A DNA stretch of 22,266 bases from a virus: IMG/VR virus record IMGVR_UViG_3300026382_000281, positions 1 through 22,266 of that record; one strand, written 5' to 3'. The translations under genes and the position numbers were made by a program. The notes under the pieces are model-generated. The model was given only the letters and a program-made list of their open reading frames with translations, was not told the origin of the DNA and ran no database searches. Positions 1-10,692 of this stretch are shown here, in pieces. The stretch's first letter is position 1. The number at the start of each line of letters is the position of its first letter.

Positions 1-414
1 TCATTTTTTCTTTTGTTTTTTTTCTTCAATAGCATTACAAATTTTTTCAACACATTCATCAAGATTTTTTCTTATTTCTTTTTCCCAAAACCTTAATACT
101 GTCCATCCTTCTTTTTTTAAAGTTTCATTTACTTTTTTATCTCTTTCGATATTTCTTTTTAATTTAGGTATCCAGTAATCTTGGTTAGTTTTGGGAACCT
201 TGCCTTCGAGAAAATATTTGCCGTGCCAGAATTCGCTGTCGCAGAAGACGGCAATTTTATATTTTTTTATGCAAATATCAGGCTTTCCGAATATATCTTT
301 ACAGTTTTTTCTATATCTTATGCCTTTTGCCCATAATGCTTTCCTTAGCATAATTTCTATAGAGGTATCTTTTGACCTTATTCTTCTCATGTTTTCTGAA
401 CGGCTTATTCCCAT
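1..414 (-). CDS. vsr: Vsr-like very short patch repair endonuclease
   Basis: Family role: nicks DNA at T:G mismatches that arise when 5-methylcytosine deaminates, so it normally travels with an m5C methyltransferase. The 137 aa match the usual Vsr length (about 135-155). Visible motifs, in order: MRRIRSKDTSIE near the N-terminus (E20), GKPDICI with D46 at the catalytic Asp position, FCDSEFWHG with H64 at the catalytic His position, then NIERDKK and WTVLRFWEKEI. The Thr found before the FWH motif in E. coli Vsr is Cys58 here. It is the last gene of a minus-strand operon, 13 nt after the restriction endonuclease gene, with a weak ribosome site, so translation may depend on its neighbour. Its stop codon is at the window edge. 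The mismatch context it recognises cannot be read from sequence. Confidence 0.9.
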   Translation of the reverse strand: MGISRSENMRRIRSKDTSIEIMLRKALWAKGIRYRKNCKDIFGKPDICIKKYKIAVFCDSEFWHGKYFLEGKVPKTNQDYWIPKLKRNIERDKKVNETLKKEGWTVLRFWEKEIRKNLDECVEKICNAIEEKKQKKK

Positions 415-427
415 GAGTTGTCTTTCA

Positions 428-1453
428 TTATAATTTGTTTATTATGTGATTTTCCCAATCATCTTTAGTGTATTTTAAACTTTTCATCCCAAAAATATAT
501 TTATGCTGTTTGCTAAAACTTCTTATGCCTTCAAAAGAAACTTTTATTTTGTTTTTGTTTTGTTTTTCCTCGATTTCTTTTTTTATTTCTTCTAAAATAT
601 CTTCGCTGTATTCTCCGCAATAATTATAAATTGTTGCATTTGTTCTTCCAAATCTATATTCATAAAAAGGTTCTTTGCTTTTATGTTCATTTTTGACAAT
701 AAATCCCGGAATATAGCCTATAACAGGTTTAAAAGAAGGTATCTGGTTGAAAATATTATCAGCTTCTTCTTCATCAATGCAGTTTTCTTGAATTCCGCAT
801 TTAAGAATTTTGTCTCTAAAAACGGATATTTCTTTAAAAAAGCTGAAAAGATGGTCGTTGGAAATTATAAGCTTTGTTAATATAAAAATATCAGATTTAT
901 TAAATTGATCGCCGGGTATATCCATCCATATACCATTGAATTTTGTAGATTTTATTGAAATTTTTTGTTCAGGTTCTTTTATTTGTTCTTTAATTTTAAC
1001 TTGATGTATGTCTCTAGGAAGATATTCTTCAAGAGAACCTTGTTCATGGCCTAAAAATATTTTTATATCGGGAAAGTTCTTTTCTATCCATTGTTTTACG
1101 CCGAATTCTCCCAAATATCCTCTTATAGTATCAGCCCATTTTTGCCCAAAATCTCTTTGTCTTGAACTGCCGAAATCGGTTCCTGCAATTAAGAATTGAA
1201 TTTTTAACGCTTCGATTACCACTTTTGAATATGTTTTTAGATCTAACTCAAAAATAAAAGGCTTAAATCTTTTATGAAACCATTCTTCAATTCCTTTTTC
1301 ATCAGGAAAAGCAGAGCCAGCAAGAACACATTTGCTTATTAAAGATTTGAATTCATTTTCAGTAATTTTATTATTTGTTTCTTCTGAAAATTCTTTTGCT
1401 TTATCTTTTATAATTTGTTTCAGCTCTTTTTTTGTAAGTTTTTTTGTAGCCAT
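428..1453 (-). CDS. Putative type II restriction endonuclease
   Basis: 341 aa, 11 nt after the m5C methyltransferase and 13 nt before vsr, which is the classic place for the cognate endonuclease. I do not recognise the family with confidence. Residues 140-170 contain LPRDIHQVK followed by QKISIKST, compatible with a PD-(D/E)XK-type centre using D148 and K168 with Ser in place of Glu; this is a suggestion only. Residues 90-115 (GTDFGSSRQRDFGQKWADT) look like a conserved block. The open frame extends 11 codons upstream and would overlap the methyltransferase, but ATG at 1453 is preceded by AAAAAGGATCACC, a good ribosome site, so I start there. Target specificity is unknown and presumably that of the methyltransferase. 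Confidence 0.72.
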   Translation of the reverse strand: MATKKLTKKELKQIIKDKAKEFSEETNNKITENEFKSLISKCVLAGSAFPDEKGIEEWFHKRFKPFIFELDLKTYSKVVIEALKIQFLIAGTDFGSSRQRDFGQKWADTIRGYLGEFGVKQWIEKNFPDIKIFLGHEQGSLEEYLPRDIHQVKIKEQIKEPEQKISIKSTKFNGIWMDIPGDQFNKSDIFILTKLIISNDHLFSFFKEISVFRDKILKCGIQENCIDEEEADNIFNQIPSFKPVIGYIPGFIVKNEHKSKEPFYEYRFGRTNATIYNYCGEYSEDILEEIKKEIEEKQNKNKIKVSFEGIRSFSKQHKYIFGMKSLKYTKDDWENHIINKL

Positions 1454-1464
1454 GGTGATCCTTT

Positions 1465-2556
1465 TTATGTCAAAACAGGAGTGCATGATTCTAAAGATGG
1501 TTTTATTGAAGGATATTCAATACCGGCTAAAGTTTTTAGGCAGGCGGTAAAAATAATTTCAGCAAGTTTAGGAGGAACGGCCATACCTATTTGCCTTCTG
1601 ACGCTTTCTTTGTTTCCTTCAAAAATAAAATTATCCGGAAAAGTCTGAAGCCTTGCTCTTTCTCTGTTGGTAAGAGCCCTTGGCTCTTCATAATGATATA
1701 TATGTGTTCCTCCGCCTCCGCTTCCTGTTACAGTGTATGAAGGTTCATCAGGGTGCAGTCTTTTATATATTTGGCTTAATTTTGCCCCTTTAACATTTAG
1801 CCTTAATTCAGGAGGCAGGGTTTCATTTACATCCCATATATTTTGTCCGGGTTTTATTCTTTTAAGTCTTTCAACAACCGTTTTAGACTGTTTGGTAAAT
1901 TCATGGTTCGGAGCGTCTGCAGGTATATTTTCTAAAACTTCTTTTACTGTTATATAATTGTTTTTATGCGTCGGCGCAGGAACCTTAAATGTTTTTTTTA
2001 AATCTTTCCTGAAACCGACAATAATAATTCTGTGTCTTTTCTGAGGGATTCCATATTCTTCTGCTTTAAATTCATGAACCGTAATATTGTATCCTTTCCC
2101 TGCCTTTTCAAGATCTTTAAGTATTTTTGCAAAAGCTTTTCCAGAATTTGAGCTTTTCAGTCCTGATACATTTTCAGCGACAAAAAATAGAGGATTGAAA
2201 TTATTCAGAACTTTTACTCCATAAGTATATAAAGGCCCGTATTCTCCCTCAAAACCTTTTCTTTTTCCTACATTGCTAAAATCGTTGCAAGGGAATCCGT
2301 AAGCAAATACATCCACCGGCGTAAGGTTTTCAATATTTAATTTTCTTACGTCTTCGCATATAACATTTTTAGGATCTATATCTATATTGCGTCTGTAAGT
2401 TTTACATGAGTCTTCGTGGAAATCATTAGCCCATTCATGTTTTATTTTGTAAATTTTGCTATCTGTTTCAAATATTGCCTTCTGGGCACCCAGTGCCAGT
2501 CCTCCGGGACCGCTGAAAAGTTCACCCATTTTTAATTCTATTATCTCTTTTCTCAC
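1465..2556 (-). CDS. DNA (cytosine-5-)-methyltransferase
   Basis: Transfers a methyl group from S-adenosylmethionine to C5 of cytosine, protecting host or phage DNA from the paired endonuclease. Motifs in canonical order: motif I FSGPGG (14-19), motif IV GFPCNDFS with catalytic Cys90, motif VI ENV (128-130), motif VIII QKRHR (172-176), a target-recognition region (about 190-290), motif IX LTNRERARLQTFP and motif X RQIGMAVPP. Length (363 aa) is normal for single-chain enzymes. The start is GTG with AAAAAGGGA just upstream; the alternative ATG at 2529 has no good ribosome site. It leads a three-gene methyltransferase-endonuclease-vsr operon. Only 20 nt separate its start from a remnant of the phage repressor 3' end, so it may be read from the repressor promoter. 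The recognition sequence is not assignable by eye. Confidence 0.95.
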   Translation of the reverse strand: MRKEIIELKMGELFSGPGGLALGAQKAIFETDSKIYKIKHEWANDFHEDSCKTYRRNIDIDPKNVICEDVRKLNIENLTPVDVFAYGFPCNDFSNVGKRKGFEGEYGPLYTYGVKVLNNFNPLFFVAENVSGLKSSNSGKAFAKILKDLEKAGKGYNITVHEFKAEEYGIPQKRHRIIIVGFRKDLKKTFKVPAPTHKNNYITVKEVLENIPADAPNHEFTKQSKTVVERLKRIKPGQNIWDVNETLPPELRLNVKGAKLSQIYKRLHPDEPSYTVTGSGGGGTHIYHYEEPRALTNRERARLQTFPDNFIFEGNKESVRRQIGMAVPPKLAEIIFTACLKTLAGIEYPSIKPSLESCTPVLT

Positions 2557-6919: not shown

Positions 6920-7071
6920 ATTTATCTGAAAGAAAAAATTATAAAAGAAGAGCTGATGACGGAAGAAAATACACAAAACCACTTGCAAGTAAAGTGAAAG
7001 CAAAAAGAAGAGCTAAAAATAAAGCGGCAAGAAAAACAAGACAACTTCAAAGGAGACAAAATGAGCAGTAA
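6916..7071 (+). CDS. Highly basic 51-aa protein
   Basis: ATG at 6916 overlaps the nuclease stop (ATGA), with AAGGAG upstream, and its end overlaps the recT-like start by 11 nt. The product is extremely rich in Lys and Arg (e.g. KVKAKRRAKNKAARKTRQL), suggesting nucleic-acid binding. It sits exactly between nuclease and annealing protein, so it may work with them. No family recognised. Confidence 0.6.
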   Translation: MNLSERKNYKRRADDGRKYTKPLASKVKAKRRAKNKAARKTRQLQRRQNEQ

Positions 7072-7843
7072 TAACTTAGTTCCGCAAGAATTTGGCGAAA
7101 GAATGAAATATTGTGAGGTTTTAGCAAGCAGCAGTTTAGTCCCATCTGGATTTAGAGGAAAACCGGAAGACGTTTTCGTTGCGATTGAATTCGGACAAAT
7201 GGTCGGGCTTAACCCTATGCAGGCATTAACAAACATTGCCGTAATAAACGGCAGACCTTCAATTTGGGGAGACGCGGCGCTTGCACTTGTTAAAGCAAGC
7301 GGAAAGTTGGAATATATTAACGAATATTTGGAAGAAGACGGGGACAACATAGTTGCGGTATGCGAAACAAAAAGAAAAGACGAATCGGTAGCGGTAGTAA
7401 GAGAATTTAGCATAAAAGACGCTGAGAAGGCAGGCTTGCTAAATAAATCGACATGGAAACAATACCCTAAAAGAATGCTCCAGATGAGAGCAAGGGCGTG
7501 GGCTTTAAGAGACGCTTATCCTGACGTTTTAAGCGGTATTCAGATAGCGGAAGAAATGCAGGACGTGGAAGTTGTAGAAGAGACGCAAAGAAGCGAAATT
7601 AAAGCGGAAACTAAATCTTTACCGAAAAAAGAAGAGCCGCTTTATAAAATCGTCGGCAATTTGCTTATGGAGAAATACAAAGAGCCGTTGAGAATTAAAA
7701 AATTCGTAAGAGAAACTTTAAACCTGCCGGAAGAAGTGGAGCTAAAAGGCAAGTATTTACAAAATCTAACGGAAGATGAATTGAAAGTATTGCAGACGGC
7801 TCTACAAAGCGAAGAACTTCAGCTCCAAGCCGAAAAGGCTTAG
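7061..7843 (+). CDS. RecT-like single-strand annealing protein
   Basis: Anneals complementary single strands during phage recombination and replication restart. 260 aa with AAAGGAGACAAA before ATG 7061. Recognisable RecT-type core: VAIEFGQMVGLNPMQAL, then VINGRPSIWGDAALALVK (about 65-87), later YPKRMLQMRARAWALRD and YPDVLSGIQIAEEM (about 135-170). The C-terminal 80 residues are a charged, variable extension that may contact SSB or the nuclease. Follows the nuclease gene as in RecE/RecT and YqaJ/YqaK pairs. Confidence 0.82.
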   Translation: MSSNNLVPQEFGERMKYCEVLASSSLVPSGFRGKPEDVFVAIEFGQMVGLNPMQALTNIAVINGRPSIWGDAALALVKASGKLEYINEYLEEDGDNIVAVCETKRKDESVAVVREFSIKDAEKAGLLNKSTWKQYPKRMLQMRARAWALRDAYPDVLSGIQIAEEMQDVEVVEETQRSEIKAETKSLPKKEEPLYKIVGNLLMEKYKEPLRIKKFVRETLNLPEEVELKGKYLQNLTEDELKVLQTALQSEELQLQAEKA

Positions 7844-8171: not shown

Positions 8172-8480
8172 ATGTATCAGAAATATATATGTGTCGGCAA
8201 TTTAACAAGAGACGCCGAGCTTAAATACACTCCAAGAGGCAAATCCCTTGCCGTGTTTGATATTGCTGTAAATACGAAATACAAAGACAAACAAGACACA
8301 ATTTTTTGGAAATGCACGCTGTGGAACGCTGAAAAGTTAGCGCAATACCTTACAAAAGGCAAAAAAGTCTTAATAGAGGGAATTGTTAAAGAAGAAAAGT
8401 GGGAAGACAGGAACGGAACTATAAGAGTTAATAAAGTTTTAGAAATTAAAGAATTTAAGTTTTTTGGAGGTCAAAAATGA
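8172..8480 (+). CDS. ssb: Single-stranded DNA-binding protein
   Basis: Protects single-stranded DNA in replication and recombination. 102 aa with OB-fold features in order: ICVGNLTRDAELKYTPRGK, VAVNTKY-like strand, FWKCTLWNAEKLAQYLTKGK, VLIEGIVKEEKWEDRNG and a last strand ending FKFFGG. This is only the OB domain. The disordered linker and acidic DDIPF-type tail that recruit partners in bacterial SSBs are missing, so it may act without the host SSB interactome. Begins directly at the previous stop. Confidence 0.92.
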   Translation: MYQKYICVGNLTRDAELKYTPRGKSLAVFDIAVNTKYKDKQDTIFWKCTLWNAEKLAQYLTKGKKVLIEGIVKEEKWEDRNGTIRVNKVLEIKEFKFFGGQK

Positions 8481-8917
8481 TTGGAGCAAAAATTTATTTT
8501 ATAGCAGATGATAAAGTTAGAGTAGGAATAGTAACAGCCGTTACAAAAGATTACAAAGGTAAAATAACCTACCACGCTGCTTATTTTGGCGATGATGGGG
8601 AAATTTATGAAAAGTTTATTCCAGAAAAAGAGATTTTTACTACCTTGGATTATCTTTTGTGTGAAATTATAGAAGAAGTGAAAAGTGATGATGCAAAAAG
8701 ATTAAGGGAATTGTTTTTTAAAGAAGCAAAAAGGGCAAAAGAAGAAGGAAATGTATATGAAGTTTGGTTTTATAAAGAAGATAAGAAAATAGCAGAAAAG
8801 ACATTTAAAATGAGAGATAAACAAAGCCTTATGTTTGAAATTTTTACTTGTGGAATTGATGCAGATAGCTATTTCATAATCCCTAAAAGGACGGACAATG
8901 AAAAGAAGAATGGCTGA
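8477..8917 (+). CDS. Two-part phage protein, paralogue of the 5145 gene
   Basis: 146 aa, overlapping ssb by 4 nt, with GGAGGTCAAAA upstream. N-terminal about 65 residues are homologous to the 87-aa protein at 5145-5408 (MIG.K.YFI....V..GI.T). The C-terminal half (VYEVWFYKEDKKIAEKTF and onward) looks like a separate small alpha/beta unit. Function unknown. Its place next to ssb suggests replication or nucleotide-related early work, by association only. Confidence 0.72.
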   Translation: MIGAKIYFIADDKVRVGIVTAVTKDYKGKITYHAAYFGDDGEIYEKFIPEKEIFTTLDYLLCEIIEEVKSDDAKRLRELFFKEAKRAKEEGNVYEVWFYKEDKKIAEKTFKMRDKQSLMFEIFTCGIDADSYFIIPKRTDNEKKNG

Positions 8918-9170
8918 AACGAGTTTAGAGGCATATGAGTATTTAAAAGCAAACAATAAATTAAAACCTACTCAAAAAGAAGTTTTAAAAGCTCTTTTGG
9001 AGCTTGGAACTGCTACAAGCAAAAGGATAGCTAAAAAACTACATAAACCGCTGCATGCAATAAGTGGGCGCATTACAGAACTAAAAGATATGGGATTGGT
9101 TGAAGTAATTGGAAAAGTCAAAGAGGGCAGAACTTCTTTTAGTCTATTAAAAGCAAAAGGCAAAATATGA
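8898..9170 (+). CDS. Winged-helix (MarR-like) DNA-binding protein
   Basis: 90 aa. A winged helix covers 24-85: QKEVLKALLELGTATSKRIA, then LHKPLHAISGRITELKDMGL as recognition helix region, and a wing ending RTSFSLL. It overlaps the previous gene by 20 nt and the initiator gene by 4 nt, with AAAAGGACGGACA before ATG 8898. Phages often place such proteins beside replication genes as regulators or primosome parts. A later ATG at 8910 is possible. Confidence 0.78.
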   Translation: MKRRMAETSLEAYEYLKANNKLKPTQKEVLKALLELGTATSKRIAKKLHKPLHAISGRITELKDMGLVEVIGKVKEGRTSFSLLKAKGKI

Positions 9171-10075
9171 GCTATTATCAAATACAGCCAACAGACTACA
9201 TTGATAAACTAATTGATGAGGAATTATATCAAAAGGCAGGAGCTTTCCAAAATTATTGGAGGCTCTTTTATAAGTATTACGTAAAAGATAATGATATTAC
9301 AAGAGTAATAGATAAAGATTTAGAGCATTTTAATAAAAGATTTTCAAAACGCACACTTGCAAAGGTTTTTAATGTGAAGAGTAAAGATACTGCAGGTAAA
9401 TGGAGAGATGAGTTTATGGAAGTGATTAGTAACTTTATAGCCCACTGGAAGCTTTTTGAAACGCAAAAAAACATTACTCAGGATAAGTATACTCAAAAAC
9501 AGGGTAGCCACTCATTAGCCACCAAACAGCCAAAAAGTAGCCAAAGAGTAGCCACCCAATTAGCCACTGACAATATGTCAGAAACTACCGAAAAATCGGA
9601 GTTAAAAAGTAATGAAAAAAAATTAATTAGCCACCCGATTAGCCAAAAAATAGCCACTAAACAGCCAGAGAGTAGCCACGAAGTAGCCAAATATATAACA
9701 AATAACAATAACATTAACAATAACAAAAAAATAAATAAAGAATGGTTTGAAAACTTTTTAACGGAACTATCAAAAATTTCGAAACAAGTTCATCAGAAAA
9801 GATATGAATTTGAAAGCACATTTATAAGCTTATTTACTTTTTATGATGACGTAGAAGAAGTGATTGAATGGGCGAGCAAGAATGAGTTTTGGGCTGATAA
9901 ACTAATAGATCCAAGAAGCATTAAGAGAAATTACGAAAAAATGAGACTTCAAATGCTAAAAGAGAAATCAAAAAAATCTATTCCTAATGGACCTAATAAG
10001 GTAGAGCAAATAAAAGATGAGATTGAAGCATTAAGGGCTATTTATGAAAAAAAGTTAAATAAGGGGGTTGCATGA
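9167..10075 (+). CDS. Replication initiator with origin iterons in its gene
   Basis: 302 aa, the probable counterpart of lambda gpO. The N-terminal domain (1-100) is helical with a likely helix-turn-helix in RFSKRTLAKVFNVKSKDTAG; a low-complexity linker (about 113-195) rich in Ser, Gln, Lys and Asn is encoded by twelve DNA iterons and an AT-rich tract; the C-terminal domain (about 196-302) is charged and helical and would recruit helicase or loader. No nuclease or polymerase motif is present. Assignment rests on the iterons within the gene, its place after ssb and a winged-helix gene, and the next gene's resemblance to helicase-loader-region proteins. Direct sequence identity to known initiators is weak. 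Confidence 0.7.
   Translation: MSYYQIQPTDYIDKLIDEELYQKAGAFQNYWRLFYKYYVKDNDITRVIDKDLEHFNKRFSKRTLAKVFNVKSKDTAGKWRDEFMEVISNFIAHWKLFETQKNITQDKYTQKQGSHSLATKQPKSSQRVATQLATDNMSETTEKSELKSNEKKLISHPISQKIATKQPESSHEVAKYITNNNNINNNKKINKEWFENFLTELSKISKQVHQKRYEFESTFISLFTFYDDVEEVIEWASKNEFWADKLIDPRSIKRNYEKMRLQMLKEKSKKSIPNGPNKVEQIKDEIEALRAIYEKKLNKGVA
9505..9566 (+). repeat. Origin iteron cluster I (six TAGCCA sites)
   Basis: Sites start at 9505, 9516, 9527, 9538, 9549 and 9561: spacings 11, 11, 11, 11, 12. Five read TAGCCA and the third reads CAGCCA. The period is one DNA helical turn and is not a multiple of three, so the phase of the repeat shifts through the codons and the pattern cannot come from protein repeats. 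All copies have the same orientation, so a protein would bind along one face. Confidence 0.88.
9567..9599. repeat. Two small inverted repeats between iteron clusters
   Basis: CTGACA (9567-9572) and TGTCAG (9576-9581) form a perfect dyad around ATA. CCGA (9588-9591) and TCGG (9596-9599) form a second, weaker one. They sit in the gap separating the two iteron clusters and may be sites for another factor, or small hairpins in the unwound origin. Confidence 0.5.
9628..9689 (+). repeat. Origin iteron cluster II (six TAGCCA sites)
   Basis: Sites start at 9628, 9640, 9651, 9662, 9673 and 9684: spacings 12, 11, 11, 11, 11, the reverse order of cluster I. Five read TAGCCA and the fourth reads CAGCCA. 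Cluster II begins 67 bp after the last site of cluster I. Same orientation as cluster I. Confidence 0.88.
9690..9745 (+). other. AT-rich tract, candidate DNA unwinding element
   Basis: Directly after iteron cluster II the sequence is almost pure A/T with repeated AATAACA units, encoding the Asn/Lys-rich stretch ITNNNNINNNKKIN. The strong A bias on the top strand and the position beside the iterons match the easily melted part of an origin. The boundary is approximate. Confidence 0.6.
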
Positions 10076-10692
10076 TAGCACCAGAGCTGTTTACAATTGA
10101 AATGAGGAAATTTTTGGATGATATTGATGCAAATATGGATAAACAAACTCTTATAAGTTATTATGAAAGATTAAGTGAGGAATTAGATGATGAGAATTTT
10201 TTGAGAGCAATTGAAAGACTTAGAAGAGAATGGACGCCATATGGTAGACCTTATCCAAGCAAACTTGAGTTTATAAGAGCTGCTGGATTAAGTGATGCGG
10301 AAATTGAAGAAGCTGCTAATCTTGCTTATCAGGTAGCAAAAGAAACTGCTATTTTTGAAGGTTCATATGTTAGTCCTGATTTTGAGGATCCTTTAATCGC
10401 AGATGTGATAAATGAAAAATTTGGAAGCTGGTTTGACTTTCATAATGAAGTTGCTTATGCAAATAGTGATGATACTTGGGCTAAAAGAGATTTTATTGAT
10501 ACTTACAAAAGAAAAGCAAAAAATAAAAGAGTAAGAGGAGTTAAATTGATTGGTTATGGGAAAAATCCAAGACCTTTAAAAATAGCTTGTAATTATAACA
10601 TACCTGTAAGAGTTAAAGACGAAAAGCAAATTGAAAATAAAGCTATAAAAATAGTTGCTCAATTAGCAAACGCTAAAAGGATTGGGGCATGA
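10072..10692 (+). CDS. Probable helicase loader-like replication protein
   Basis: 206 aa, overlapping the initiator by 4 nt in the place held by gene P in lambda. N-terminal part (1-80) is helical and ends in RREWTPYGRPYPSKLEFIRAAG, which resembles the W..-P-P..-EF block of lambda P-like and DUF6475-like phage proteins. The rest is mixed and contains WFDFHNEVAYANSD. No Walker motif, so it is not an AAA+ DnaC-type loader. Role inferred from position and this one block. Confidence 0.55.
   Translation: MIAPELFTIEMRKFLDDIDANMDKQTLISYYERLSEELDDENFLRAIERLRREWTPYGRPYPSKLEFIRAAGLSDAEIEEAANLAYQVAKETAIFEGSYVSPDFEDPLIADVINEKFGSWFDFHNEVAYANSDDTWAKRDFIDTYKRKAKNKRVRGVKLIGYGKNPRPLKIACNYNIPVRVKDEKQIENKAIKIVAQLANAKRIGA

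Follow-up and report, generated by a model that had tools for sequence, protein, structure and literature searches.

An iteron array with an 11-bp pitch inside a phage initiator gene as a likely replication origin

Why would a phage gene carry the same six-letter word twelve times, at a period that is out of frame with its own codons? The window analysed here, a stretch of 22,266 nucleotides of viral DNA (IMG/VR record IMGVR_UViG_3300026382_000281), raises this question in an open reading frame at 9167-10075 (plus strand) that encodes a 302-residue protein. Twelve YAGCCA sites lie inside it, all on the plus strand, and each was located both in the window sequence and in its relatives. Block 1 consists of iterons 1 to 6 (9505-9510, 9516-9521, 9527-9532, 9538-9543, 9549-9554 and 9561-9566) and block 2 of iterons 7 to 12 (9628-9633, 9640-9645, 9651-9656, 9662-9667, 9673-9678 and 9684-9689). 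Ten sites read TAGCCA and two, iterons 3 and 10, read CAGCCA. Start-to-start distances are 11, 11, 11, 11 and 12 bp in block 1, 67 bp between the blocks, and 12, 11, 11, 11 and 11 bp in block 2, a mirror-like arrangement with the 12-bp steps at the inner edges, next to iterons 6 and 7. No inverted copies of the motif were found within the initiator gene. The positions, spellings and spacings given in the first-pass annotation of this DNA all proved exact.

The last iteron directly abuts an AT-rich stretch (9690-9740), A-rich on the plus strand, which by its composition and codon identity is a putative DNA unwinding element. Over the 50 bp from 9690 the AT content is 90%, the joint highest value among all 50-bp stretches in the 22-kb window. 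For the DnaD motif TnnT (PMC10201434), the bottom strand of this stretch has 26 sites against 22.4 expected (p 0.024), a weak excess that was kept only as a prediction. The blocks are separated by a 61-bp spacer (9567-9627), and the corresponding 67-bp start-to-start distance is fixed in three relatives. Part of the window's spacer (9567-9603) can form two hairpins, CTGACA-ATA-TGTCAG and CCGA-AAAA-TCGG (DNA folding z -7.4). These were rejected as a component of the mechanism, being absent in the close relatives L009 and L010.

The gene is called an initiator because its product has a DnaD-like domain and because of its neighbouring genes. The protein consists of a predicted N-terminal helix-turn-helix domain, a predicted disordered linker encoded by the array region, and the DnaD-like domain at the C-terminus. 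The latter covers residues 227-279 (9845-10003, plus strand), matched by positions 206-258 of the profile of the DnaD-like helicase loader phrog_2514 (E 9.4e-8). The full-length AF2 model is poor (pLDDT 51), and the low confidence for residues 100-189, across the array, was read as disorder. In the AF2 model of the N-terminal part, the block mean pLDDT is around 90. This model and the alignments define a predicted helix-turn-helix, SKRTLAKVFNVKSKDTAGKWRDEF, at 9344-9418 (plus strand), which is nearly invariant among relatives and is the proposed iteron-binding element. The array begins after it, at codon 113. The modelled N-terminus is helical and has no wing; Foldseek returned no structural match for it, and hhalign, with a shallow alignment, gave no detectable link to the winged-helix N-terminal domain of O/DnaD proteins (0.5%).

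When the amino acids were fixed and synonymous codons were redrawn from the phage's own usage (20,000 trials), the mean number of sites was 1.7 and the maximum 7, compared with 12 observed. The array is not a chance product. Its sites occupy all three reading frames, ten being in frames 1 and 2 and two in frame 0. The two frame-0 sites are exactly the two CAGCCA copies, where TAGCCA would place a stop in the gene, and one frame-0 site of L009 reads AAGCCA. The two spellings are thus explained: the first base is T except where coding forbids it.

Only two close relatives of the initiator were found, L009 and L010, both with a protein that is 74% identical; a scan of genome contigs found none. 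In both, the twelve positions are all retained, and so is each spacing, among them the 67-bp gap and the 12-bp inner steps, while the inter-site bases and the spacer sequence vary. Conservation of spacing in related phages had been proposed as a check, and the spacing is indeed kept despite changes in codons and residues. We also compared codons for residues that are the same, in the array blocks, the AT-rich stretch, and the N- and C-terminal parts. The two blocks had an identical-codon rate of around 0.97, against 0.87 for the AT-rich stretch and 0.65 for the terminal parts; the p-value of the Fisher test on these data is too small, since the test takes pairwise comparisons to be independent, but the contrast of 0.97 with 0.65 stands. 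This bears out the earlier claim that selection acts on the DNA. L009 shares 94-95% identity with the window in terminase and portal, and the virion genes are around 40-52% identical to those of Sulfurimonas phage SNW-1. Because of these resemblances, the host is probably a relative of Sulfurimonas.

SNW-1 also provides a distant homologue of the initiator. The N-terminal domain of the window protein matches WAK43912.1 of this phage (33% over 96 residues, E 2e-7), and the WAK43912.1 gene and its relatives L394 and L395 have, at about the same place, five GAAC sites spaced at 11, 9, 46 and 11 bp. The SNW-1 group shares with the window the N-terminal homology, a two-block array and an AT-rich stretch after it. 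It differs in having GAAC and no TAGCCA, fewer and less regular sites, a C-terminus without detectable similarity and an adjacent DnaB gene. The first-pass annotation held that homologous genes without the 11-bp sites would speak against an origin; this group retains the layout but not the strict array of twelve sites. At several sites of L395, GAAC is preceded by GT where the other two phages have CC, and the spacing is unchanged. A trans-acting binder would be expected to produce such concerted motif change at constant spacing. The joint change between CCGAAC and GTGAAC in this group (L394, L395 and L136:28549-29349) is a small natural case of initiator-iteron co-evolution.

The genes around the initiator, all on the plus strand, include a RecT-like annealing protein (7061-7843; PF03837, phrog_561), a single-strand DNA-binding protein (SSB; 8172-8480; PF00436, phrog_44) and, just upstream, a 90-residue winged-helix protein (8898-9170; TrmB/MarR-like matches, phrog_1123). 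The order of RecT, SSB and initiator resembles that of annealing protein, SSB and DnaD-like loader in phages Tuc2009, TP901-1 and Staphylococcus phage PVL. A 206-residue protein (10072-10692), conserved next to the initiator in L009 and L010, matches only phrog_10105, of unknown function, and weakly DUF6475. Modules of this type have a helicase or loader gene in this place, and from its position the protein may be a helicase loader or a partner of one. The GC skew shows no switch at the array but one near 4.5 kb, in step with gene direction, and was dropped as origin evidence.

The array is a long, split case of a known kind of origin, that of lambda and phage L. Features of intragenic origins found here are direct repeats in the initiator gene, an adjacent AT-rich tract and selection at the DNA level, and those resembling phage L are the 11-bp pitch, the two blocks and the direct orientation. 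Gene 18 of phage L has six 11-bp repeats that were called the likely origin (PMC8022706). As in the window, these are direct repeats in two blocks after the N-terminal domain, with an AT-rich stretch adjoining the last repeat. In phage L, the six copies of TGTCCAACGGA form a 3+3 array whose gap is 44 bp, against 6+6 TAGCCA-type sites and a 67-bp gap in the window. The phage L protein has an O-type winged-helix N-terminus and its gene is followed by a DnaB-like helicase gene, whereas the N-terminus of the window protein is unplaced and its C-terminus is DnaD-like. Phage ST64T gp18 has the same repeats as phage L gene 18, and Sf6 gp43 and HK022 O have a similar layout. In ST64T gp18 and Sf6 gp43, GTCCA recurs at 11, 11, 44, 11 and 11 bp, and the Sf6 record annotates a putative rep_origin on the 3+3 array of gp43.

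Lambda likewise has iterons and an AT-rich tract in its initiator gene O, at a similar position in the protein, but its four iterons are 18 bp long and spaced at 20-24 bp, compared with 6-bp repeats at 11 bp in the window. Similar too is rep (orf16) of Lactococcus phage Tuc2009, a DnaD-like helicase loader gene after SSB. It contains four CAACCA sites at 11 bp, and its record states 'contains origin of replication'; it differs from the window in having four sites, one block and another motif. Loaders of the phrog_2514 type (Staphylococcus phages PVL and TEM123, Listeria phage vB_LmoS_293, Bacillus phage Palmer, Cellulophaga phage phi18:3 and many IMG/VR phages) share the DnaD-like annotation, an array at around residues 100-120 and an A-rich stretch after it. 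Their winged-helix N-terminus is not matched by the window protein.

The first-pass annotation had described the array as denser than that of lambda. Uniqueness is not supported, since phage initiator genes commonly contain such 11-bp arrays, phage L being one case (PMC8022706). Scanning viral contigs for an exact pattern, four AGCCA spaced by 11 bp, gave 52 stretches, many of which sit in wHTH/DnaD-type initiator genes of unrelated phages. The reversed pattern was dropped as a null for viral contigs, since other initiators have iteron-like motifs of the form ACCGAC. To reduce bias, initiator genes were then collected by their N-terminal domain only, blind to arrays; the seeds were N-terminal domains of genes first found through arrays, which biases the seed lineages, while the retrieved genes were not chosen by array. 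Among lags of 5-25, lag 11 or 22 was best in 41 of 51 non-redundant genes, in the 110 bp after the N-terminal domain; in other stretches of the same contigs this was the case for around 7% of 1,718. With 14 named phages added, an 11-bp block (z of at least 3) was present in 60 of 65 O/DnaD-type initiator genes, and in 59 genes of this set 11 bp beat 8, 9, 10, 12, 13 and 14 bp. An initial survey filter left out two-letter motifs (CAACC, for example) and so counted too few arrays; the counts of 41/51 and 60/65 do not use it.

The surveyed arrays lie at the same place, right after the N-terminal domain, and an A-rich stretch then follows most of them. Their motifs are lineage-specific (TAACAAAC, CGACAAGC, ACCGACCAGCG, GAACAGCC, AACCATCAA, GGCCA and others). 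The pitch is not obligatory: no 11-bp array was found in TP901-1, which has 15-bp repeats outside this pitch, in lambda or in Paenibacillus phage HB10c2. In many surveyed genes (e.g., L270, L274 and L276), the A-rich stretch after the array has a 9-bp period, AAGAATGAT, and encodes Lys-Asn-Asp repeats. It is a candidate ordered single-strand binding element.

Very probably, then, 9505-9740 is a phage replication origin inside the initiator gene that would be bound by its own initiator, as the first-pass annotation had proposed. This reading is supported by the array, its conservation, the AT-rich stretch, the domain layout and the family-wide pattern, all of which were shown here, as was the coding constraint. 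Lambda offers the analogy for a mechanism: its O protein binds iterons, and unwinding needs the AT-rich tract (PMC7466680). By this analogy, the 302-residue protein would use its N-terminal helix-turn-helix domain to bind the TAGCCA iterons, with about one protomer per 11 bp, and coat two blocks of six that face the 61-bp spacer. The loaded array would strain or melt the adjacent stretch at 9690-9740, and the DnaD-like C-terminal domain, together with a host or phage loader, would recruit the replicative helicase. Predicted disorder in the linker that the origin encodes may let it tolerate a sequence dictated by the DNA; at sites whose frame would give a TAG stop, the iteron starts with C or A instead. 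The continuous filament on one face of the DNA predicted by the first-pass annotation is only roughly compatible with 11 bp, which slightly exceeds one helical turn (arithmetically, a drift of around 17 degrees per step at 10.5 bp per turn), and the 61-bp spacer between the blocks would interrupt it.

A different binder is conceivable for the same origin. The 90-residue protein encoded at 8898-9170 might recognize the iterons and leave the 302-residue protein to act mainly as a loader, giving a split initiator. The 90-residue protein is clearly a winged helix with a very weak O-like match (phrog_678, E 0.038), and its gene runs into the start of the initiator gene. The protein's 94% identity in L009, against 74% for the initiator, also fits, L009 being the sole informant on this gene because L010 starts downstream of it. 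We nevertheless consider this division of labour unlikely, as the 302-residue protein has its own near-invariant predicted helix-turn-helix and related families have the array in the gene of the presumed binder.

The role of the array in initiation can also be doubted. Phased short direct repeats occur in operators and centromere-like sites too, and protein binding within the gene could repress the operon, so that the array might be a regulatory operator or partition-like site for a phage protein, unrelated to replication initiation. Its location within an initiator gene, beside an AT-rich stretch, in a layout common to annotated or proposed phage origins, makes such a function improbable. We give hardly any credence to repeats that serve the protein as a Ser/Ala/Gln-rich linker or that form a neutral minisatellite. 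The encoded linker is repetitive, and in bacterial genomes the array pattern matched mostly simple minisatellites, with no initiator genes recognised among the matches. Against this stand the out-of-frame 11-bp period with use of all three frames, the conserved synonymous codons, and inter-site bases that differ while the sites stay.

Beyond the preferred reading of this locus as an origin bound by its own initiator, a general rule may apply, to which we give an even chance: in phages of many hosts, the origins of O/DnaD-type initiators would be built on a fixed pitch of around 11 bp, with one short site for each turn of the helix, in the linker just after the DNA-binding domain, with an A-rich end and a motif that varies freely and in concert between lineages. 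The window obeys it despite a seemingly unrelated N-terminus. If true, this suggests that the pitch is set by packing of initiator against initiator and not by the recognised word. A constant pitch with swapped motifs would make the origin, and the probable target word of its initiator, readable from many phage genomes, and provides a natural series for studying the co-evolution of initiators and their sites.

Two further observations concern other loci. In-frame 11-bp repeats of the ACCGACCAAGT type occur in the viral contigs L066, L068, L073, L078, L080, L087, L095, L096, L111 and L129. The genes concerned do not resemble initiators (one encodes a membrane-like protein starting MKEKFLPWF, and the product of another starts MNIFFLDENP), and the repeats look like a dispersed repeat element. 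At the left end of the window (1-2556, minus strand), open reading frames resemble, by sequence only, a Vsr-type endonuclease and a cytosine DNA methyltransferase, possibly a restriction-modification cassette.
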